Part shown: piece after piece, positions 16,059 through 58,015 of the stretch
Layout of the letters: every line of letters starts with the position of its first letter
How positions within the stretch are numbered: the stretch's first letter is position 1
DNA from: Oceanobacillus iheyensis HTE831
Lineage (GTDB): Bacteria > Bacillota > Bacilli > Bacillales > Amphibacillaceae
Direction of reading: 5' to 3'
NCBI RefSeq assembly: GCF_000011245.1
Contig: NC_004193.1
Location: 2,086,501-2,150,500, forward strand
DNA length: 64,000 bases
The notes under the pieces: model-generated
What the model was told of the DNA's origin: nothing
The model's input: only the letters and a program-made list of their open reading frames with translations
Databases searched by the model: none
Translations under genes and position numbers: made by a program

Positions 16059-16646
16059 TTATCTTTTTATATATCTGGATAAAGCTGACCAAGCTTCATC
16101 TTTCCCTTCTCCTATTTCAGCCGAGAATGGAATAAATAAATCTGTTTCATCCATTTCTAATACTTGCTTCGCTCTATTGATGTGTTTTTGACGTTTGTTT
16201 TTTGTTATCTTATCTAATTTTGTCCCGATAATGATGACAGGAAGATCAAAGTACTTAATAAAATCATACATTTGAATATCATCTTGGGTAGGATCATGCC
16301 TTAAATCAGTTACTAATACGACAGCTCTCAACGTATCTCTTGTTTGGAAGTATTCTTCCATCATCCGTCCCCATTTTTCTCTTTCCTTTTTCGATACTTT
16401 TGCATAGCCATACCCTGGTACGTCAACAAAATAAAATGACTCATTGATACGATAAAAATTAAGTGTCTGTGTTTTACCCGGCTTTGATGACGTTCTAGCA
16501 AGATTTTTTCTATTGATTAGTCGATTTATAAACGATGATTTACCGACATTAGACCTTCCAGCTAAAGCAATTTCCGGTAATTGATCTTCTGGATACTGCT
16601 TTTTACTTACCGCACTAATGACAATTTCAGCATGGTTAACTTTCAT
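16059..16646 (-). CDS. engB: Ribosome biogenesis GTPase EngB (YsxC)
   Basis: Essential TrmE-Era-EngA-EngB type GTPase that acts late in assembly of the 50S subunit. 195 aa, standard length. G1 GRSNVGKSS (30-38), G2 region [10 protein letters not shown]3 DVPGYG, G4 GTKLDK and G5 FSAE are all intact. Starts 3 bp after the lonA stop, so it is co-transcribed and probably translationally linked to lonA, as in B. subtilis. Confidence 0.97.
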
Positions 16647-16649
16647 TTT

Positions 16650-18968
16650 TTATTCCTCCACGAGTGCTTGTTCTAAAACTTCGTCTAAATGTTTTACTGG
16701 TATAAATGTTAATTCATTTCGTACACTTTCTGGAATGTTCTCAATATCCTTTTCATTTTCATCAGGAATTATTATAGTAGTTAATCCAGCACGGTGAGCA
16801 CTTAGTGCCTTTTCTTTTAATCCTCCGATTGGCAATACTCTACCGCGTAAAGTGATTTCACCAGTCATTCCAACTTCCTTTTTAATTGCCCTGCCTGTTA
16901 ATGAACTTACTAGAGCCGTGGCAATAGTTATTCCAGCAGATGGTCCATCTTTTGGTGTAGCTCCAGCTGGAACGTGAATATGAATATCATATTTCTCATA
17001 AAAATCTGGTTCAATATGAAAATGATTCGTTCTTGAACGCACATAACTAAATGCAGCTTGTGCAGATTCTTGCATAACATCTCCTAATTGGCCAGTTAAT
17101 GTTAATTTTCCCTTACCAGGATAGTGACTTACTTCGATTGAAAGTATATCCCCTCCTGCCGAGGTATAAGCTAACCCAGTTGCTGCACCAATTTGATTTT
17201 CTTGTTCCATCAATCCATATCGGAAATAAGGTTTGCCTAAATAATCCTCGATAGTATGTTCTGTTATAATAATACGTTCTTTCGATGTATCCGTTATTAA
17301 TGTTTTAGCTGCTTTTCTGCATAAGGTAGCTATTTGTCTTTCTAATCCCCTTACTCCTGCTTCACGAGTATATCTTCGAATAAGTTTCATTACTGCCGTT
17401 TCACGCATTTGTAATTTGCTTTTCGTTAATCCATTTTCTTGTAATTGCTTTGGAATTAAATGTTCCTTCGCAATATGGAGTTTTTCCACTTCTGTATAGC
17501 CCGCGATAGAGATTAGTTCCATTCGATCAAGTAAAGGCTCAGGAATACTTGATACATTATTCGCTGTAGCAATAAAAAGAACATTTGATAAATCATACGT
17601 CTCTTCTATAAAGTGATCACTAAACGCATGATTTTGTTCTGGATCTAATACTTCTAACATCGCTGAAGATGGATCACCACGAAAATCATTTGACATCTTA
17701 TCAATTTCATCAAGTAAAAAGACTGGATTAATGGTTTCTGCTTTTTTCATTCCTTGCATGATTCTACCTGGCATTGCACCAATATAAGTTCTTCTATGCC
17801 CACGAATTTCCGCTTCGTCTCTTACCCCACCTAAAGAGATCCTCACAAACTTTCTATTGATGGAATTCGAAATAGATTTTGCTAAAGAAGTTTTTCCAAC
17901 ACCAGGTGGTCCAACTAAACACAGAATAGGTCCTTTTATAGAGTTAGTTAACTTCTGAACAGCTAAATACTCAAGAATTCGTTCTTTTACTTTATCTAAT
18001 CCATAATGATCTCTATTCAATACCTTCTCTGCTTTTTTAATATTAATATTATCTTTCGTTTTGTTTTGCCAAGGTAATGCGATAAGCCATTCAATGTAAT
18101 TTCTAATCACGGAACTCTCAGCTGATGATTGAGGCACTTTTTCATATCTACCTAATTCTTTTAACGCTACATTACGAATATGGTCAGGCATGTCCGATTT
18201 TTCAATTTTCGAATGCAACTGATCTAAATCTGTTGCCTTTCCATCCCGTTCACCCAATTCTTTTTGTATCGCCTTTAATTGTTCTCTTAGGTAGTATTCT
18301 TTTTGTGTTTTTTCCATTGAAGATTTTACTCGTTGCCCTATTTTTTTCTCTATATCTAATACTTTCTTTTCATTAGAAATAATCTTTAATAATTTTTTAA
18401 TTCGCTCATTTATATTAAGTGTCTCTAAAAGCTTTTGTTTTTCTGGTACTTTTAAAGCGATATGAGATGTTATTATATCCGAAAGCCTACCTGGGTCTTC
18501 GATATCACCTACTGATTCAAATGTATCTTCTGTTACTTTACGTGATACTTTAACATATTGTTTAAAATAGTCTAGTAAGGTTCTCATTAAAGCTTCTATC
18601 TCATTTTCTTCACTTTTTGTTTCCTCTAATTTCTCAACTTCTACTAAATATTCATTTTCACTATCAATGTGACGTATTAATTTCCCTCGATACATACCTT
18701 CTACTAACACACGATTCGTTCCATTAGGAAGTTTTAGCATTTGCTTAACTTTTGCTACTGTACCAATCGTATATATATCTTCTGGTTGAGGATCTTCTAT
18801 ATTTCCTTTCTTTTGGGCAGCTAAGAATATGTATTCGTCTTCCACCATAGACCTTTCAATAGAGGCAATTGATTTATCACGCCCCACATCAAGATGTAGA
18901 ACCATTGAAGGGAAAACTAACAATCCACGTAATGGCAAGAGGGGAATCTGTTTAAATTCTGTTGTCAT
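16650..18968 (-). CDS. lonA: ATP-dependent protease La
   Basis: Cytosolic AAA+ serine protease that degrades damaged and regulatory proteins. 772 aa. Order: LAN substrate-binding domain (about 1-200), AAA+ module with Walker A GPPGVGKTS near 352 and Walker B VFLLDEIDKMS, then the protease domain with catalytic Ser in DGPSAGIT (near 674) and Lys in GGLKEKALSAHRAG. The start is ATG at 18968, with GGAGGT 7 bp upstream; an upstream in-frame start at 19007 would add 13 non-family residues. B. subtilis lonB, normally between lonA and clpX, is missing. Confidence 0.97.
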   Translation of the reverse strand: MTTEFKQIPLLPLRGLLVFPSMVLHLDVGRDKSIASIERSMVEDEYIFLAAQKKGNIEDPQPEDIYTIGTVAKVKQMLKLPNGTNRVLVEGMYRGKLIRHIDSENEYLVEVEKLEETKSEENEIEALMRTLLDYFKQYVKVSRKVTEDTFESVGDIEDPGRLSDIITSHIALKVPEKQKLLETLNINERIKKLLKIISNEKKVLDIEKKIGQRVKSSMEKTQKEYYLREQLKAIQKELGERDGKATDLDQLHSKIEKSDMPDHIRNVALKELGRYEKVPQSSAESSVIRNYIEWLIALPWQNKTKDNINIKKAEKVLNRDHYGLDKVKERILEYLAVQKLTNSIKGPILCLVGPPGVGKTSLAKSISNSINRKFVRISLGGVRDEAEIRGHRRTYIGAMPGRIMQGMKKAETINPVFLLDEIDKMSNDFRGDPSSAMLEVLDPEQNHAFSDHFIEETYDLSNVLFIATANNVSSIPEPLLDRMELISIAGYTEVEKLHIAKEHLIPKQLQENGLTKSKLQMRETAVMKLIRRYTREAGVRGLERQIATLCRKAAKTLITDTSKERIIITEHTIEDYLGKPYFRYGLMEQENQIGAATGLAYTSAGGDILSIEVSHYPGKGKLTLTGQLGDVMQESAQAAFSYVRSRTNHFHIEPDFYEKYDIHIHVPAGATPKDGPSAGITIATALVSSLTGRAIKKEVGMTGEITLRGRVLPIGGLKEKALSAHRAGLTTIIIPDENEKDIENIPESVRNELTFIPVKHLDEVLEQALVEE

Positions 18969-23097: not shown

Positions 23098-23676
23098 TTC
23101 TTCACCTCGCTCTCCACATCAAAATTGACATTATTAGTGTATACCCCAATAAATTATAACTTAAACACTCTAAAAATAGCTACAAGCCTTTCTATAAATA
23201 TAGCTAAGATAATTATGAAAACAAAAAGAATTTGTTTGGGATATTTTTAACATGGTTTTCTGATTTTACCCGAATCTACCTTATTAAAATAGGTTTAAGA
23301 TTGTAAAAAAAAATATGTCCAACTTTAATTACATTCTATAATTTCCTATTTAAATCCTGCCAACAGACAGAAATTCTAAATAGATGCTATATTTTAACAA
23401 AATTCGACTTAAATCACCATCTAATTATTCTCCCCCACTAATATAATTAGAAAACGAAACTCCATTCCGGAATTCCATGCCTATTACAAAACCGATAAGA
23501 TATTGGTACCCTTACGATCTATTTCTACTAAACCATTTTCCTATTTCACTTCTAAAACCTTGTACACCTCCAATGAATTCAGTGCTGCCAATAGGTAGCA
23601 GCCGTTCCTTATTCAATTAAAATTCTATAAAATACAGCAGCTGATTAATTGAATGTATATTTTTAGGAGGTCAACT
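23098..23676 (+). promoter_or_regulatory. Gene-poor leader of the nucleotide-sugar dehydrogenase, with a GerE-box-like site
   Basis: No gene in about 580 bp. Near the right end I see CAATAGGTAGCA (23589-23600), 10 of 12 with the GerE consensus RWWTRGGYnnYY. TATAAAATA (23626-23634) resembles a sigma-K -10 with its first base changed, and there is no good -35. A 9-bp inverted repeat (ATTCAATTA 23611-23619, TAATTGAAT 23646-23654) brackets that -10. The spacing places the GerE-like box about 46 bp before the inferred start point, which is compatible with activation by GerE. Confidence 0.4.
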
Positions 23677-24999
23677 ATGAAAAAAACAAACAATACAACA
23701 AACACTCCCTACGTAAATTCAAAAGTAGGTGTAATTGGCATGGGTTATGTCGGACTTCCTCTAGCTTTATTATTCTTAAAAAAAGGATATCAAGTTACTG
23801 GAATTGATATTAATCAATCTAAAATTAGCCAATTACAAAACGGAAAAAGTTATATTCCAGATATTAAAGACAACGAACTACAGGATGCGCTAAAAACGGA
23901 TAGTATTATATTTACTTCCAACTATGATGTCATAAGTCAATTAGATATTATCGTAATATGCGTTCCAACACCTTTAACAAAAGAGCAAATTCCTGATCTT
24001 AGTTATATCAAAAATGTAAGTGAAGAAATATATCCAAGACTGCAAATTAATCAGTTAGTTATTTTGGAAAGTTCCACTTATCCAGGAACAACACGTGATA
24101 TTCTCCTACCAATATTAGAAAAAAGCGATCTACAAATTGGTTCAGAGTTCTATCTAGGTTATTCTCCAGAGAGAATTGACCCTGGAAATAACACGTTAAA
24201 AGTAGAAGAAATTCCTAAAGTAGTTGGCGGTATATCAGAGGGTTGCCTGCAACATATAACTGATTTCTATCAAAATGTATTTGATGAAATAATTCCAACT
24301 TCTTCTGTTGAAATAGCTGAACTATGTAAATTAGTGGAGAATAGTTATCGTTTTATTAATGTATCCTTTATAAACGAATTGGCAATGCTCTGCGATCAAT
24401 TAAATATTAATTTATGGGAAGCAATTGATGCTGCTAGTTCAAAACCATATGGTTTTCAACCGTTTTACCCGGGACCTGGAATCGGAGGACATTGCATTCC
24501 GATTGATCCACTATATTTGTCATGGATAGGACAACAACATGGATTTAATAACCAATTTCTAGCTCTTGCAGAGCAAAAAAACAAAGATATAAGTCAGTAT
24601 GTAATCAATCAGATTAATAATATCGTTCATGCAGAAAAACCTATTAATGAGGCAAATATTCTTATCTGTGGTGTATCATACAAAAAAGATTCCAATGATG
24701 TTCGAACGTCTCCGCCTTTAGACATCATGAAAACGTTAGTAAAAAGTTACAAAAGTTTGGTGTACTTTGATCCAGCTGTTCCAACTGTTGAAATCAACCA
24801 ACAAACATATCACAGTACGGAGATAACTCCCCAACTATTAAAAAAAATGGATATAGTTGTCATATTAGTCGACCATTCTGCCATTCCTGTCCAGGACATA
24901 CTAAACCATGCAAAAATAGTATATGATACCAAGAATGTAACTGCTGGATTAACCGGAAGTGCTAAATTATTCTTGTTAGGTAACGGAAATATATCTTAG
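23677..24999 (+). CDS. Nucleotide-sugar (UDP-HexNAc type) 6-dehydrogenase
   Basis: Oxidises C6 of a UDP-sugar to the uronic acid with NAD. 440 aa. NAD-binding KVGVIGMGYVGLPLAL is near residue 18, and catalytic C273 lies in GIGGHCIPIDPLYLSW. The GHCIPIDPxYLSW form is typical of the WbpA/TviB/WecC group (UDP-GlcNAc or UDP-ManNAc dehydrogenases) rather than plain UDP-glucose dehydrogenase, but the substrate is inference. It may correspond to B. subtilis YtcA. ATG at 23677 has AGGAGG 6 bp upstream, better than an in-frame ATG at 23653. Followed at once by a glycosyltransferase. Confidence 0.88.
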   Translation: MKKTNNTTNTPYVNSKVGVIGMGYVGLPLALLFLKKGYQVTGIDINQSKISQLQNGKSYIPDIKDNELQDALKTDSIIFTSNYDVISQLDIIVICVPTPLTKEQIPDLSYIKNVSEEIYPRLQINQLVILESSTYPGTTRDILLPILEKSDLQIGSEFYLGYSPERIDPGNNTLKVEEIPKVVGGISEGCLQHITDFYQNVFDEIIPTSSVEIAELCKLVENSYRFINVSFINELAMLCDQLNINLWEAIDAASSKPYGFQPFYPGPGIGGHCIPIDPLYLSWIGQQHGFNNQFLALAEQKNKDISQYVINQINNIVHAEKPINEANILICGVSYKKDSNDVRTSPPLDIMKTLVKSYKSLVYFDPAVPTVEINQQTYHSTEITPQLLKKMDIVVILVDHSAIPVQDILNHAKIVYDTKNVTAGLTGSAKLFLLGNGNIS

Positions 25000-25011
25000 T
25001 TGGTGACCTTT

Positions 25012-25698
25012 ATGATATCAATCATTACTTGTACGAATCGAGATCATATGATGGAAAATATATTCCTTAACTATAGTTCACAGACTATAGAGAACAAGGA
25101 ATTAATTATCATTTTAAATAACGATAGTATTAATCTTTCCCGATGGATTGGCAAAGCTGCCAATTATTCCAATGTATCTGTTTTTCAACTACCTGAATGG
25201 TATACAGCTAGTGAGTGTAAAATGTTTGCATCTCAACAAGCATCCTTTGATTATATTGCTAAATTTGATGATGATGACTACTATGCTCCTAATTATTTAA
25301 AATCCATTTGGTCTATATATCAAACCAACAAAGAAGTAGATATTATAGGAAAGAGTACGGTTTATGTATATTTTCAGGAAAGCAATTATCTAGGAATCTT
25401 ACATTCTAGTAAAGAAAACCAATATACAAATCGAGTAGTAGATTCAACTCTTACTTTTAAGAAAGATGTGTTATCTAAAGTGTCATTTATAAGAAGCAAG
25501 TATGGTTCTGACGCTAAATTTCAAAAGGATTGCATTTATAATGGGTTTAACATTTATTCTACTGACAGATTCAATCATGTTGTTTTCCGAAATGAACATC
25601 ATAATGATCACACGTGGAAAATTACAGACCAACAGCTAATGAATGCATGTACAGACCTTATTTGTACGAATGATTTTAAATCAATCATTCACCGTTAA
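25012..25698 (+). CDS. Family-2-like glycosyltransferase
   Basis: About 228 aa. The N-terminus SIITCTNRDHMMENIFLNYSSQ and the FDDDDYYAPNYL motif near residue 84 are the nucleotide-binding start and DxD metal site of GT-A enzymes. No membrane segment is evident, so it acts in the cytosol or at the inner membrane face. ATG at 25012 has a weak GGTG site; in-frame TTG and GTG codons at 25000 and 25003 are alternatives directly after the dehydrogenase stop. Probably co-transcribed with the dehydrogenase. Acceptor unknown. Confidence 0.8.
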   Translation: MISIITCTNRDHMMENIFLNYSSQTIENKELIIILNNDSINLSRWIGKAANYSNVSVFQLPEWYTASECKMFASQQASFDYIAKFDDDDYYAPNYLKSIWSIYQTNKEVDIIGKSTVYVYFQESNYLGILHSSKENQYTNRVVDSTLTFKKDVLSKVSFIRSKYGSDAKFQKDCIYNGFNIYSTDRFNHVVFRNEHHNDHTWKITDQQLMNACTDLICTNDFKSIIHR

Positions 25699-25747
25699 AA
25701 ACAGAAAATAGATGCCTATTTTGTTAAATCAATTATATTCCCCCTAT

Positions 25748-25774
25748 ACGTATATTTATAACTTTCATAGTATA
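25748..25774 (+). promoter_or_regulatory. Sigma-K-type promoter before the epimerase gene
   Basis: AC at 25748-25749, 16-bp spacer, then CATAGTATA (25766-25774), a full match to the sigma-K consensus AC-N16-CATAnnnTA. It lies 38 bp before the TTG start. Predicts transcription in the mother cell late in sporulation. Confidence 0.65.
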
Positions 25775-25812
25775 TCAAGATCTAACTAACAAACGAAAAA
25801 GGGGAATGAAAT

Positions 25813-26742
25813 TTGACAAAATATTTAGTTACTGGCGGCGCAGGATTCGTAGGATCAAATATCGTAAGGAAGCTTATTTCAAACGGGGAATCGGTTAGAT
25901 TGCTAGATAATTTCAGTACAGGAAACAAGAACAATATAGCAGATATTAACGATCAAGTAGAGATAATTAGCGGAGACTTTACAAATAAAGCAGTAGTTAA
26001 AGAAGCTATGAAAGGTGTAGATATTATCTTACATCAAGGGGCTATTCCTTCTGTTCCTAAATCAATCGACAATCCAATATTATCTAATTATGCAAATGTG
26101 AACGGTACACTTACTCTTTTAAACGCTGCCGTTGAGGAAGGTGTCAGTCGATTTGTATACGCAGCTTCTTCTTCCGCTTATGGCAATAATAAAAGGTTAC
26201 CGAAACAAGAAGATATGATTGCTAATCCTATGTCACCTTATGCAGTTAGTAAATATACGGGTGAACTATATTGTAAAGTTTTTTATGAAATATACGGATT
26301 AGAAACGATTTCCTTACGTTATTTTAATGTATTCGGCCCAAGACAAAATCCACATTCAAAATATGCTGCGGTCATTCCAGCATTTATAGAATCAATCATT
26401 CAAAATCAATCACCTATTATATACGGTGATGGTACACAATCAAGAGATTTCACTTATATCGATAATGTTGTATCTGCTAATCTACTTGCCGCTACCGCGA
26501 AAAATTTAAAAGGGGAAGTAGTTAATATCGGTACTGGAACCCAAATACAGCTAAATGATTTGGTGGATCGTATTAACAATATTTTAGGAAAAAACATTTC
26601 TGCTATCCATACGAAGGATCGTGCAGGTGACGTTAAACATTCCTTAGCTGACATACAGCGCGCTAAAGATATAATAAACTATGAACCAATAACTACATTT
26701 GATGATGGTTTAATAAAAACAGTAGAATGGTTTGACAAATAA
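25813..26742 (+). CDS. NAD-dependent nucleotide-sugar 4-epimerase
   Basis: 309 aa, extended short-chain dehydrogenase. GGAGFVGSN (about 8-16) binds NAD. The catalytic tail SPYAVSKYTGE contains the YxxxK pair, with Ser in ASSSAYG. It resembles the WbpP/TviC/GalE group that epimerises C4 of UDP-GlcNAc, UDP-GlcNAcA or UDP-Glc. With the neighbouring dehydrogenase it could make UDP-GalNAcA or UDP-GalA. The start is TTG, with GGGG 8 bp upstream; an ATG nearby is out of frame. May correspond to B. subtilis YtcB. It has its own sigma-K-like promoter. Confidence 0.88.
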   Translation: MTKYLVTGGAGFVGSNIVRKLISNGESVRLLDNFSTGNKNNIADINDQVEIISGDFTNKAVVKEAMKGVDIILHQGAIPSVPKSIDNPILSNYANVNGTLTLLNAAVEEGVSRFVYAASSSAYGNNKRLPKQEDMIANPMSPYAVSKYTGELYCKVFYEIYGLETISLRYFNVFGPRQNPHSKYAAVIPAFIESIIQNQSPIIYGDGTQSRDFTYIDNVVSANLLAATAKNLKGEVVNIGTGTQIQLNDLVDRINNILGKNISAIHTKDRAGDVKHSLADIQRAKDIINYEPITTFDDGLIKTVEWFDK

Positions 26743-41115: not shown

Positions 41116-41152
41116 AAGTGATCTTTAAAAGACACTTTCACCCTGTTTTTTA
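41103..41152. terminator. Bidirectional terminator
   Basis: AAACAGG and AAAGTG pair with CACTTT and CCTGTTT around a short loop, flanked by A-run and T-run. It covers the stop codons of the convergent regulator and uronate-dehydrogenase-like genes. Confidence 0.85.
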
Positions 41153-41902
41153 TTTATTTTTTATTATGTCATTTGAATTCATTTTAGAAACAAACCCTAA
41201 TTTTTCTTTTGCATTATCATTACACCATGGTTTATTAGGATTATCAGAAACACCATAGAATGTTCCATATCCTATATCGCTTATAATAGCTTCCTTAAAT
41301 AAAGTAATGGTATCTACTTCTGAAAGCCATGTATGTCGATTACGTTTTAGGTTTTTATAAATTTCTGTTTCCTCATTTAATTTCACACTTCCAATCCTCA
41401 GATTGATTACAGAAATACCATATTGGTTACTAAAAGCAAAACCTATATTTTCTACAGCAAGCTTAAGTACTCCGTATAGTCCTTCTGAATAAGGATAATC
41501 GTTTACATTTATACTTCTTCCCAACTTTGATTTGCCTTCTGACTCATAATAATCTGTAACATGATTACTACTTGCAAAAACAACTTTTGGAATATTTAAT
41601 TCCTCGGCTGCCTTAAGGATATTATAAGAAGCTTTAAAATACACATCGACCATATCGTTCATCTCAGAAATATTAACAAGCCTTCCGACATTACCAGTTG
41701 ATAGCAGGTTTATTAATACATCTGTTCCATTAGGTATGTTATTAATAAGTTCTGTAAAATTTTTAGCATCTGTTTCCTTCGAGTTTGCACTATTTTCATC
41801 AACATTAACATCAAGACTATAAACATCGAATTCCTGTTTTAATCCTCTTTGCAAAATGGTCCCAATTGTTCCACTACCACCTATTAAAACAACTTTCCTC
41901 AT
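41150..41902 (-). CDS. Uronate dehydrogenase-like NAD-dependent SDR
   Basis: 250 aa extended SDR. NAD motif VVLIGGSGTIGTIL at the N-terminus. KVVFASSNHVTDYY and YPYSEGLYGVLKLAVENIG contain the Ser and the YxxxK pair. INLRIGS and WLSEVDTITLF are close to bacterial uronate dehydrogenases, which oxidise galacturonate or glucuronate to the aldarolactone. Substrate specificity is inference from motif resemblance and the pectin context. Convergent with the regulator gene and 98 bp after the hydrolase, so possibly a two-gene unit. Confidence 0.75.
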   Translation of the reverse strand: MRKVVLIGGSGTIGTILQRGLKQEFDVYSLDVNVDENSANSKETDAKNFTELINNIPNGTDVLINLLSTGNVGRLVNISEMNDMVDVYFKASYNILKAAEELNIPKVVFASSNHVTDYYESEGKSKLGRSINVNDYPYSEGLYGVLKLAVENIGFAFSNQYGISVINLRIGSVKLNEETEIYKNLKRNRHTWLSEVDTITLFKEAIISDIGYGTFYGVSDNPNKPWCNDNAKEKLGFVSKMNSNDIIKNK

Positions 41903-42000: not shown

Positions 42001-43008
42001 CTAATTAAGATTCTGTATTAGCCAGGAAAAGGATTCTTCTCCATTAATTTCATGACCACCATTAAAATAATGGGCTTCTAATTCAGTTTCTGCATTATAA
42101 GCCTTATATATTTTTAGTAGCTTGTTCATACTTATCTCAACTTGGTCCATGGGGAAAAGTTTATCGTCTTTTCCGGATTCAATAAAAAGTGGCCTTGGAG
42201 CAATTAAGGCTATTAATTCATCCATCTCTCCAATTTCAAGTATGCCTGGTATATAATTATCAAGACAGTGTCTTCTACTCATAATACTCCCTTTAAATGT
42301 ACTCAAATATCCACTGAGTACAGTTGCTTTGATCCTTTCATCGAGTATGGACGTAAATGCTGCAACTAAGCCTCCACCTGAAAAACCGAAACTACCGATT
42401 TTTTCCTCATCGACCATATTAAACGATTGAATATAGTCTAATACCCGTTTTATCTCCTGGACCCTTAAACCTGCTAATGTCTTCCCCATTAACAATAGTT
42501 GACTCCCAATTTCAAAGCATGAATTTTCAAGTGGTTGCTCTGCATTCATATCTTCATCCAGTCTGCGGTCGCCAAATCCAATAATCCCTGGTACCACAAC
42601 AATTACTCCTTTGTTTACTAACCTAGCAGCAAACTTATTATGGATTCCTGTAAATTTACATTGTTCGCCATTAATGTTTAATCCAATCGCTTCTTTCATC
42701 CCATAGCCGTGTCCATGAAGCGCCAAAACAGTTGGTAGCTTTCGTTTCTTCTTTTTGTTGGGAATAAGTATATAAAGTGGGATTCGCAGCGGCTGGATAG
42801 AAGTAATTTCCATACAGATTAATTTATAATTTTCTAATTTTCTTCTTTCCAGTACCTTAGGGTTAAAGTGAACACTGTTATTTTGAAATTCTCCTAAAGC
42901 ATGGCTGACACAATCTTTCATCCCTTTACCATGTGTTTTATCATGTTTGTCTAAGGAATGGATGGTATTAATGTATTGTTGATTTAAGAACATGCTAATA
43001 TTATTCAA
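42001..43008 (-). CDS. Alpha/beta hydrolase (carbohydrate-esterase-like, Abhydrolase_7 type)
   Basis: About 335 aa with no signal peptide. The nucleophile elbow GFSGGG is near residue 218, preceded by ALHGHGYG (oxyanion region). PRPLFIESGKDDKLFP holds the acid Asp, and HYFNGGHEING the His. Resembles YtaP/acetyl-xylan-esterase-related hydrolases found in plant-polymer clusters; the true substrate is unknown. I prefer the TTG start at 43008, with GGAGGG 7 bp upstream; an in-frame TTG at 43023 overlaps the ribosome site, and ATG at 42993 has none. Confidence 0.78.
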   Translation of the reverse strand: MNNISMFLNQQYINTIHSLDKHDKTHGKGMKDCVSHALGEFQNNSVHFNPKVLERRKLENYKLICMEITSIQPLRIPLYILIPNKKKKRKLPTVLALHGHGYGMKEAIGLNINGEQCKFTGIHNKFAARLVNKGVIVVVPGIIGFGDRRLDEDMNAEQPLENSCFEIGSQLLLMGKTLAGLRVQEIKRVLDYIQSFNMVDEEKIGSFGFSGGGLVAAFTSILDERIKATVLSGYLSTFKGSIMSRRHCLDNYIPGILEIGEMDELIALIAPRPLFIESGKDDKLFPMDQVEISMNKLLKIYKAYNAETELEAHYFNGGHEINGEESFSWLIQNLN

Positions 43009-43199
43009 TCGATTTCCCTCCAATGCTTCAGATATTTATAATCTTATATTTTATAATAGAGTAATATTTCAGATAAATATAGATTGACTTCCATGTTTTA
43101 ACATCAAAAATAAGTAAAATGATTTCCATACCTGCTATTTCTATTTAGTAAAAAAAGATTAAATCGACTAGTTATTGTATTTTACGCACTTCTCCTAAC

Positions 43200-43226
43200 A
43201 CTTCCAAATTTCTATTTCATACTATA
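43200..43226 (+). promoter_or_regulatory. Sigma-K-type promoter before the glycosyltransferase pair
   Basis: AC at 43200-43201, 16-bp spacer, CATACTATA (43218-43226), an exact fit to AC-N16-CATAnnnTA. It is 35 bp ahead of the ATG. Confidence 0.65.
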
Positions 43227-43261: not shown

Positions 43262-44257
43262 ATGGTAAATAAACCAATAAATGACAGCACAATTAAGGGA
43301 AAACATATCCTAATCTATGATCGACTATGGTGGATTCAAGGACAAAGAGCGTTACTTTTACAAAAATATCACCCAAATTTAGAAATAATGTCCTATCATG
43401 ATTTTTTAGACTTGGTAAAGCAAAAAGGAGTAAAGATGGTTAACAAAGAATATGAAGTAATATCAACCTTAGGTTTATGGACAGCCGAACGCCTTATTCA
43501 ACATAATGTTCATGTATATTCTTCTGTTGCTGGCTCATATAGTTACCTCGCTACAAATCAAGATGATTTTCGTGAATGGGCAGAACAAATCAAACCGAAT
43601 AATCGCTATATCAAACAAGTAATTAAAAAAATTGATAGGATCGGTGCCGTAAATAAAAAACTAGCTAATACTATTAAAAAATACTGTCCAGATAAACATG
43701 TAGATTATGTAAAGGCTTTTGTTGAAACTGATAAATTTAAACCATTGCCTTTACCCCAAAAAGATACATCTGTTTTTACCATAGGTTGGGTAGGTAATTC
43801 CGATAAACGCTCCAAAAATTACCATACGGTATATAAGGCTATTAAAAATCATTACAAAAACGACTCTACGATTGTATTTAAAGAAGCAACAAAAGAAAGC
43901 AGAATTGATAGAACAGATATGCCAGAATTTTATAACTCTATTGATTTACTACTGGTTACTGGGGCGAATGAAGGTCTTCCAAATCCTGCTATGGAGGCTT
44001 ATGCATGTGGAGTACCTGTATTAGGCACAAATATAGGTATTATTAAAGACTGGGCATCACCAAATGCAAAATCATTCATTCTCAACTCCGATGATCCTAG
44101 AAAGTTTATATATAAGATTAATCAATTAAAATCTAATCCAAAGCTTCATCAAACACTAAAAAAAGAAATCCGAAAAAATATAGAGAATAACTGGACTATT
44201 AAACAAAATATTGATGGTTGGTTATATACATTATTCAATATAGGTGGTGAACGTTAA
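43262..44257 (+). CDS. GT4-family glycosyltransferase
   Basis: 331 aa, GT-B fold. The C-terminal half has IGWVGNSDKRSKNYHTVYKAI (donor domain start) and the GT4 signature DLLLVTGANEGLPNPAMEAYACGVPVLGTNIG near residues 225-260, with the conserved E-x7-E. No membrane span, so peripheral or cytosolic. GGAGG 8 bp before ATG. It may correspond to B. subtilis YtcC, a GerE/sigma-K-dependent glycosyltransferase, but it is shorter than I recall for YtcC. Overlaps the next gene by 1 bp. Confidence 0.87.
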   Translation: MVNKPINDSTIKGKHILIYDRLWWIQGQRALLLQKYHPNLEIMSYHDFLDLVKQKGVKMVNKEYEVISTLGLWTAERLIQHNVHVYSSVAGSYSYLATNQDDFREWAEQIKPNNRYIKQVIKKIDRIGAVNKKLANTIKKYCPDKHVDYVKAFVETDKFKPLPLPQKDTSVFTIGWVGNSDKRSKNYHTVYKAIKNHYKNDSTIVFKEATKESRIDRTDMPEFYNSIDLLLVTGANEGLPNPAMEAYACGVPVLGTNIGIIKDWASPNAKSFILNSDDPRKFIYKINQLKSNPKLHQTLKKEIRKNIENNWTIKQNIDGWLYTLFNIGGER

Positions 44258-45102
44258 TGAAAAAAATATGTGTCGCCGTTTATGTGTTTGGTAGTTATAC
44301 TCGCTATGCACCTTATTATATTTATAGCATTTTAAAAAGTTATCCTGATTACTATGTGAAAGTATTTTCTAAAGATCCGCTTACAGCAAACGAAAATAAA
44401 GCCTTAGAACTCATTCGAAATGAAGTTTCACCTAACTTCGAAGTTGTGGAAGGGTATTTAGACGACTATATTAACTTAGATGATCCATCTAAAATGGTTG
44501 GTAGTATTGGAACGATTTTGCGTTTCCTAATTCCATATGAAGAATTCAAAGACTTTGAATATGTTTATATAGGAGATATCGACTTTTTAATAATTCGTGA
44601 AAAGCCCACCTTAGTAGATGTCCATAAAAAACATTCTAAAAAAATCGGAGTACCTTATAGTAATGCTATTCGCCCCGATTCAAAACGTTTAACAGGATTA
44701 CATTTTTTCAAGGTAAAAGATTATTACAAAAAAATGAATCCGATTATTGAATATTATTTAGAAAATCCTAGCATATTGTACGATGAAGTAAGAGCATTAC
44801 GTTATGATGAAGAATTTCTATATAAAATTATCGAAAAAGGTATAGGTTTCGGAAAGATAGAAGAACATTTTTTTCGGCCGCCGCACGGTTTTCATATTGG
44901 AGTCGGTAGACAAGGAGATAACAACGAAAGATTAAGAAAAATGGATCGATATCTAAATCAGAAAAAGCTTATTAGACAAGGGGTTATTGATCAACTAGAT
45001 GCTTTTTATAACGATCCAGTATTTAAAAAAATAATGTTATTAAGTCCGGATAAAGACATTAAGTTTCTTGGAGAACGAATAAAGCACTTTAAATCTTTAT
45101 AA
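44257..45102 (+). CDS. GT8-like glycosyltransferase
   Basis: 281 aa. KKICVAVYVFGSYTRYAPYYIYSIL opens like GT-A family 8 enzymes. YVYIGDIDFLI (about 105-115) holds a DxD metal site, and HFFKVKDYYKKM plus a late His/Gly stretch (HGFHIGVGRQGD) fit the fold. The start overlaps the previous stop (TAATG), so translation is coupled. Donor and acceptor unknown. Confidence 0.78.
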   Translation: MKKICVAVYVFGSYTRYAPYYIYSILKSYPDYYVKVFSKDPLTANENKALELIRNEVSPNFEVVEGYLDDYINLDDPSKMVGSIGTILRFLIPYEEFKDFEYVYIGDIDFLIIREKPTLVDVHKKHSKKIGVPYSNAIRPDSKRLTGLHFFKVKDYYKKMNPIIEYYLENPSILYDEVRALRYDEEFLYKIIEKGIGFGKIEEHFFRPPHGFHIGVGRQGDNNERLRKMDRYLNQKKLIRQGVIDQLDAFYNDPVFKKIMLLSPDKDIKFLGERIKHFKSL

Positions 45103-57790: not shown

Positions 57791-58015
57791 TTGAAGGACA
57801 ACGAGTATAAACCGAAGCAATTATTAACCAAACGCGAGAAAGAAGTGTTTGAACTATTAGTACAGGATAAAACAACAAAAGAAATTGCACAAGAGTTGTT
57901 TATTTCCGAAAAAACTGTCCGGAACCATATTTCAAATGCTATGCAAAAATTGGGAGTCAAGGGACGGTCACAAGCCGTAGTTGAGCTTCTTCGCATGGGG
58001 GAATTAAAGCTGTAA
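57791..58015 (+). CDS. gerE: Spore-coat transcription factor GerE
   Basis: 74 aa, exactly the B. subtilis length and nearly identical in sequence as I recall it. LuxR-type helix-turn-helix (LTKREKEVFELLVQDKTTKEIAQELFISEKTVRNHISNAMQKLGVKGRSQAVVELL). Last regulator of the mother-cell programme; it activates or represses late sigma-K genes, including coat and surface-glycan genes. TTG start with AAGGAGGGGG 7 bp upstream. Confidence 0.97.
   Translation: MKDNEYKPKQLLTKREKEVFELLVQDKTTKEIAQELFISEKTVRNHISNAMQKLGVKGRSQAVVELLRMGELKL

Follow-up and report, generated by a model that had tools for sequence, protein, structure and literature searches.

A conserved five-gene set of Oceanobacillus iheyensis that probably makes an acidic amino sugar for the spore surface

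Spore coat sugars of the Bacillaceae and the enzymes that make them are largely uncharted. The spore-glycan clusters described for Bacillus subtilis are sps, yfn, ytdA-ytcABC, and cge, and the spore sugars listed in the same accounts are rhamnose, galactose, quinovose, glucosamine, and muramic lactam, with no uronic acid among those listed (PMC7439481, PMC11708026); legionaminic acid, likewise an acidic sugar, is the reported product of sps (PMC7439481). According to the account in PMC517825, which also describes sigma-K logos, sps is transcribed from a sigma-K promoter that GerE enhances, and sigma-K and GerE also control yfnHGF and yodU-ypqP. PMC2860764 lists YtcA under COG1004, as a UDP-glucose (uridine diphosphate glucose) 6-dehydrogenase, and places ytcABC in a cluster with cotS and ytaA. 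Among the open-licence papers listed by our searches, none dealt with the genes considered here or with N-acetylhexosamine (HexNAc) uronates in spores. Here, we analyzed a 64,000-nucleotide stretch (the window) of Oceanobacillus iheyensis HTE831, part of one chromosome of 3,630,528 bases. It carries a trio of genes for a nucleotide-sugar dehydrogenase (DH), a small glycosyltransferase (GT2), and a 4-epimerase (EPI), together with a pair of transferase genes (GT4 and GTX) at 43.2 kb. We find good support for regarding these five as one spore-linked gene set.

The evidence for a single set comes from gene order in relatives. In the window genome, trio and pair lie ~17 kb apart, and the same layout is found in genome G027, whose five proteins are 86 to 90% identical. 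A single five-gene cluster is present in six other genomes. All five genes are adjacent in Oceanobacillus timonensis (G002) and Virgibacillus saliphilus (G178), where the GT4-GTX pair is divergent from DH, and they fall within ~7 kb in Shouchella tritolerans, S. clausii, Bacillus sp. JCM 19041, and Natribacillus halophilus (loci L055 to L058). Because of this synteny in six genomes, we treated the trio and the 43.2-kb pair as one functional set, which bears out the sequence-only reading made earlier of this DNA. The cluster would once have been whole and later have broken into two loci. The spore link is visible in the neighborhood: two CotX-family genes adjoin the cluster in V. saliphilus (positions 16472 to 17610 of locus L051), and a collagen/BclA_C-like protein adjoins it in O. 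timonensis, its BclA_C match being under the cut-off. CotX-family homologues were found in all six genomes searched, including the window genome, where they lie at 603 kb, distant from the cluster.

Some relatives depart from this arrangement. The JCM 19041 locus (L056) has a short DH open reading frame (ORF; 321 amino acids) and a long GT4 ORF (433 amino acids) with a GTX-like part; these features could reflect either frame errors or genuine changes. Loci L052 and L053 (genomes G015 and G004) are bigger clusters, each of which combines a single DH with two epimerases and five paralogues of GT2, and both have AC-N17-CATAATATA upstream of DH. A further transferase of the O. timonensis cluster was absent from the matches of G000 and G027 in a search run without a positive control, and a second was set aside, as it matched only the known GT4 along with weak transferase matches. 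The four strongest DH matches in genomes of family f46 are ~40% identical and have no EPI homologue in their short flanks.

DH and EPI each match the expected Pfam domains. DH has three UDPG_MGDP_dh domains and scores 416 bits on TIGR03026 (cut-off, 189.8); on the narrower models it reaches 237.4 bits for WecC, 224 for the archaeal UDP-N-acetylmannosamine (UDP-ManNAc) dehydrogenase, 214.6 for TviB, and 161.6 for TuaD. Its closest solved structures are Cap5O and an archaeal UDP-ManNAc dehydrogenase. On the basis of these model scores, the nearest structures, and the motif GGHCIPIDP, DH was placed with the UDP-HexNAc and not with the UDP-glucose dehydrogenases. By resemblance it is of the WecC/TviB class, not assignable as TviB or WecC proper, and the class evidence fits UDP-HexNAc without discriminating between N-acetylglucosamine (GlcNAc) and ManNAc. 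The best matches of EPI in the PDB are WbgU (E value, 1.6e-77) and WbpP (1.8e-77), and its residue aligned with WbpP Ser306 is Ser, the small residue that, with the numbering and the role we take this position to have, is expected of a WbpP-type HexNAc 4-epimerase. At the level of enzyme class, then, the WbpA/TviB-like dehydrogenase and WbpP-like epimerase proposed by the sequence-only reading were both upheld.

For the transferases, the predicted structure of GTX, examined with VIA-align, points to a GT-A fold with a DxD motif, GT8-like, in which D107 and D109 are invariant. No Pfam or NCBIfam match was obtained for it, and GTX is predicted to be a GT8-like transferase of a type that none of the libraries searched names. 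GT2 was followed through its relatives in named genomes, of which the best 80 of 395 gave 78 loci, 76 of them Bacillota by record title; in the family itself, 7 of 159 genomes have a GT2 relative (E ≤1e-15). A DH homologue (E ≤1e-15, at least half length) was present in 34 of the 78 loci and an EPI homologue in 20. Among the 34, 19 are at least 34% identical to DH and 15 at most 29%; the sole remote one run against the models, L097, is TuaD-like (464 bits). The chance expectation for a dehydrogenase at such loci would be ~2%, an estimate from the handful of such genes per genome, and GT2 is therefore plausibly a uronosyl transferase.

We then consider how the genes may be transcribed. The sigma-K consensus has AC at -35. 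The pattern ACN16CATANNATA is not enriched across the window genome (42 sites in 3.63 Mb; reversed control, 59), so the argument rests on where the sites lie and whether they recur. Of the 42, one ends 38 bases before the EPI start and another 35 bases before the GT4 start, and the exact AC-N16-CATAGTATA that the sequence-only reading had noted before EPI is one that recurs. Upstream of EPI orthologues, AC-N16-CATANNNTA is exact in 6/8 and present with at most one mismatch in 8/8; N16 is constant, the sites end 23 to 38 bases before the start, and the two inexact ones differ only at the A of AC. In a background of 79 other upstream regions from eight loci of relatives, the motif was exact in none and within one mismatch in one, and the reversed pattern was found with at most one mismatch at 0/8 EPI orthologues. 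When the near-duplicates G027 and S. tritolerans were left out, 4/6 were exact and 6/6 within one mismatch. In this six-sequence set, all 92 flanking columns vary; its seven invariant motif positions were demanded by the search pattern itself and add nothing independent.

A wider count covered 87 loci without the window and homologues with an upstream gap. AC-N16/17-CATANNNTA was found upstream of 21/132 cluster-gene homologues and 40/893 other genes of the loci (Fisher P = 6e-6, an optimistic value because the set counts one locus twice, as L054 and L127, and includes near-duplicates from Shouchella), against 1/132 and 11/893 for the reversed pattern. By gene, the counts were 7/22 for EPI, 6/31 for DH, 8/70 for GT2, 0/5 for GT4, and 0/4 for GTX. 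Because the motif recurs at orthologues, including those of other genera, sigma-K-type control of EPI is well supported by sequence comparison, in line with the earlier proposal; that of GT4-GTX is suggested less firmly.

The DH leader has a different conserved element. GCCGTTYC occurs in all eight close DH leaders, 16 to 17 bases upstream of TATAAAATA, AATATGATA, AATAGAATG, or similar, and this downstream -10 is weak, MATANNNTA-like, and sigma-K-like. The element was first spotted in the DH leaders and then tested on them. GCCGTTYC-N17/18-ATANNATA has one match per whole genome in 7/8; in five of these the match is the DH leader, including the sole match in the window genome, whereas in two Shouchella genomes it lies outside that leader. 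JCM 19041 has none, and the reversed control gave one match among the eight genomes. In 1.7 Mb of loci, eight GCCGTTTC-CATANNNTA pairs were found at spacings of 8 to 29 bases, six of them at exactly 17 and the others at 12 and 13. Three of the six are orthologous and precede a dehydrogenase gene in Fictibacillus, the one in L097 being TuaD-like; the others, one in Paenibacillus and two in Cohnella, lie at GT2 genes. As a general promoter class, GCCGTTTC-N17-CATANNNTA showed mild enrichment at most and was dropped (24 sites versus 16 for the control in 299 order-level genomes); the ORFs downstream of the 24 sites include two cell-wall amidases, small coiled-coil/coat-like proteins, and unknowns, and five sites have no downstream ORF under the criteria used. 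Judged from these comparisons, the GCCGTTYC-type site is a conserved feature of the DH gene.

We tentatively raise a further possibility, which we regard as open to considerable doubt: GCCGTTYC, 16 to 17 bases before a degraded sigma-K -10 (type NATANNNTA), may be bound by a mother-cell regulator, either undescribed or lacking a defined site, that drives uronate spore-glycan genes across Bacillales. As part of the same joint claim, its targets would be, in four or five genera, the DH studied here; in Fictibacillus, a TuaD-type dehydrogenase; and in Paenibacillus and Cohnella, GT2 genes. GerR is disfavored as the factor, being described as an apparent repressor only (PMC517825). A SpoIIID-like GGACAA lies upstream of the element in some orthologues only. 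A literature search with the letters GCCGTTTC gave nothing relevant among the matches listed. In L137 and L139, a GCCGTTYC-type element is located ~30 to 40 bases upstream of genes for an N-acetylmuramoyl-L-alanine amidase with a SPOR domain, which are reminiscent of late-sporulation lytic enzymes. In L148 to L153 (six genomes, genus g91), GCCGTTTC-N17-CATAAAATA lies upstream of a 62-amino-acid protein, whose copy in L149 has no Pfam or NCBIfam match.

Taken together, we consider it likely that the five genes make an acidic amino sugar and transfer it to the spore surface late in sporulation under sigma-K, and that the set was split in this lineage. DH would oxidize C6 of UDP-HexNAc, most likely UDP-GlcNAc, and EPI would then invert C4, yielding UDP-N-acetylgalactosaminuronic acid or a closely related sugar, which GT2, GT4, and GTX would incorporate into a glycan of the spore crust or outer coat. 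Both synthesis and transfer would take place in the mother cell, with sigma-K promoters transcribing EPI and the GT4-GTX pair, and a sigma-K-like promoter, whose -35 region holds GCCGTTYC for a mother-cell factor, transcribing DH-GT2. The sugar, the order of the steps, and the acceptor are what we infer here. A collagen acceptor was ruled out for the window genome, in which no collagen domain was found.

Besides the lack of genome-wide enrichment and of a collagen domain, several observations weigh against this proposal. DH is under every equivalog cut-off (TviB, 592 bits; WecC, 459), and its slightly higher WecC than TviB score leaves room for UDP-ManNAc as the substrate. EPI reaches 266.2 bits on the TviC model, short of the cut-off of 760, and has Pro at the position aligned with WbpP Gly102, a residue whose role we assume. 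The CotX genes of the window genome show no consistent sigma-K site. The GT4 site is exact in 1/8 orthologues and within one mismatch in 5/8, becoming weaker outside this species. No AC-type sigma-K site with at most one mismatch was found in the eight close DH leaders (for L056, the start used to define the leader lies too far upstream), and 4/8 of them match the reversed control pattern, versus 4/79 background regions; AC-type sites do lie upstream of remoter DH homologues, for example those in L052, L053, and L080. Lastly, two of the 78 GT2 loci come from metagenome-assembled genomes labeled Dehalococcoidia.

Other explanations must be weighed on the same data. TviB/TviC-like and WecC/Cap5O-like enzymes serve capsules, and another, distinct DH-EPI pair is present in four genomes of the same genus (tblastn: EPI 44 to 46% and DH 31 to 32% identical), as would suit a vegetative capsule, exopolysaccharide, or teichuronic-like wall polymer that uses UDP-HexNAc uronate, with the promoter matches incidental. 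Against such a polymer stand the recurrence of the EPI promoter, the CotX and BclA-like neighbors, and the absence of a polymerase or flippase among the cluster proteins run against Pfam (some ORFs were not run), and we hold it to be improbable. A spore glycan with N-acetylmannosaminuronic acid, for which a WecC-type DH would act on UDP-ManNAc and EPI would separately supply UDP-GlcNAc/UDP-GalNAc (N-acetylgalactosamine), would agree with the higher WecC score of DH (237 versus 215 bits for TviB) and with its nearest structures. We rate it as fairly unlikely, given that DH accompanies EPI in 8/8 close genomes (chosen by EPI or GT2 similarity) and that no 2-epimerase was found among the cluster proteins run against Pfam.

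The remaining alternatives keep the cluster as proposed and change its regulator. Elements like CATANNNTA at -10 are common to both mother-cell sigma factors, and the window site also has ATA 17 bases before its -10, so that sigma-E could replace sigma-K; AC at -35 in 6/8 orthologues favors sigma-K, and there seems little chance that sigma-E is the factor. Direct activation of DH by GerE through the GerE-like box CAATAGGTAGCA, as the sequence-only reading suggested, would fit a -35 region without AC, the gerE gene 34 kb away, and the precedent of yfnHGF and yodU-ypqP noted above (PMC517825). The presence of gerE in the window means that the regulator is present in the genome; action on DH does not follow. 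Of its 10 informative positions, the box departs at two from RWWTRGGYNNYY, which we take to be the GerE consensus, and sites at this level number 2,454 in the window (both strands) and occur in 77/79 background regions. With at most one mismatch, the motif is found in 4/8 DH leaders versus 29/79 background regions, and the window's DH leader lacks it. The box was thus rejected as a match no better than chance, and GerE action through it is hard to credit.

The coordinates are collected in Table 1. The DH ORF spans 23653 to 24999, with ATG 23677, preceded by TAGGAGG, as the likely start; the GT2 ORF begins at 25000 or 25012 and sits between DH and EPI. Next to GT4, both on the minus strand, lie a gene for an acetyl-xylan-esterase-like hydrolase (42001 to 43023) and one for an SDR epimerase-family protein (41150 to 41902), and G027 has similarly sized ORFs in these positions. 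gerE adjoins a YbgC-like thioesterase gene.

Table 1. Features of the window discussed in the text
Feature	Position	Strand	Basis
DH, nucleotide-sugar 6-dehydrogenase, WecC/TviB class	23677..24999	+	Profile models and GGHCIPIDP motif
GT2, small glycosyltransferase, possible uronosyl transferase	25012..25698	+	PF00535, E 4.8e-10
EPI, WbpP/WbgU-like 4-epimerase, TTG start	25813..26742	+	PDB matches, TviC model
GT4 glycosyltransferase	43262..44257	+	PF00534, E 3.5e-15; homologue adjoins DH/GT2/EPI in six genomes
GTX, unannotated, predicted GT8-like GT-A glycosyltransferase	44257..45102	+	Predicted structure, DxD
Candidate DH promoter: GCCGTTCC (23601-23608), N17, TATAAAATA (23626-23634)	23601..23634	+	Conserved GCCGTTYC
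GerE-like box CAATAGGTAGCA proposed earlier, unsupported	23589..23600	+	2/10 informative positions mismatched
EPI promoter AC-N16-CATAGTATA, sigma-K type	25748..25774	+	Exact; recurs at orthologues
GT4 promoter AC-N16-CATACTATA, sigma-K type	43200..43226	+	Exact; one mismatch in G027
gerE, 74 amino acids, TTG start, LuxR-type regulator (context only)	57791..58015	+	PF00196, E 2.9e-23

A HexNAc-uronate cluster that is conserved in Oceanobacillus, Virgibacillus, Shouchella (including S. clausii), and Natribacillus and is probably run by sigma-K predicts a negative charge on the spore surface, and it offers a testable set of enzymes, a nameless predicted transferase family in GTX, and a candidate regulatory site.

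Among known systems, TviB/TviC of the Vi antigen and WbpP/WbgU are alike in pairing the UDP-HexNAc 6-dehydrogenase class with a HexNAc 4-epimerase, the latter being the nearest structures to EPI; DH and EPI differ in falling under the equivalog cut-offs and in being spore-linked, whereas theirs serve capsule or O-antigen. GTX shares its predicted fold and invariant DxD with the GT8/GT24 retaining transferases LgtC, glycogenin, UGGT, and LARGE1, with 9 to 14% identity in aligned rows. The comparison with ytcABC drawn by the sequence-only reading stands in part. Like ytdA-ytcABC, the cluster joins a nucleotide-sugar dehydrogenase, an epimerase, and glycosyltransferases for a spore-surface glycan, as far as that system is described in PMC7439481, PMC11708026, and PMC2860764. 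The likeness is weakened by the class listed for YtcA, COG1004, for which PMC2860764 is the one source, and by its place beside a UDP-glucose pyrophosphorylase and cotS/ytaA; DH is not of that COG1004/TuaD class (TuaD, 161.6 versus WecC, 237.4 bits), and the transferases here are others. By analogy, the cluster would work like the B. subtilis spore-glycan clusters, differing from them in the class of its dehydrogenase and in at least one transferase type, GTX.

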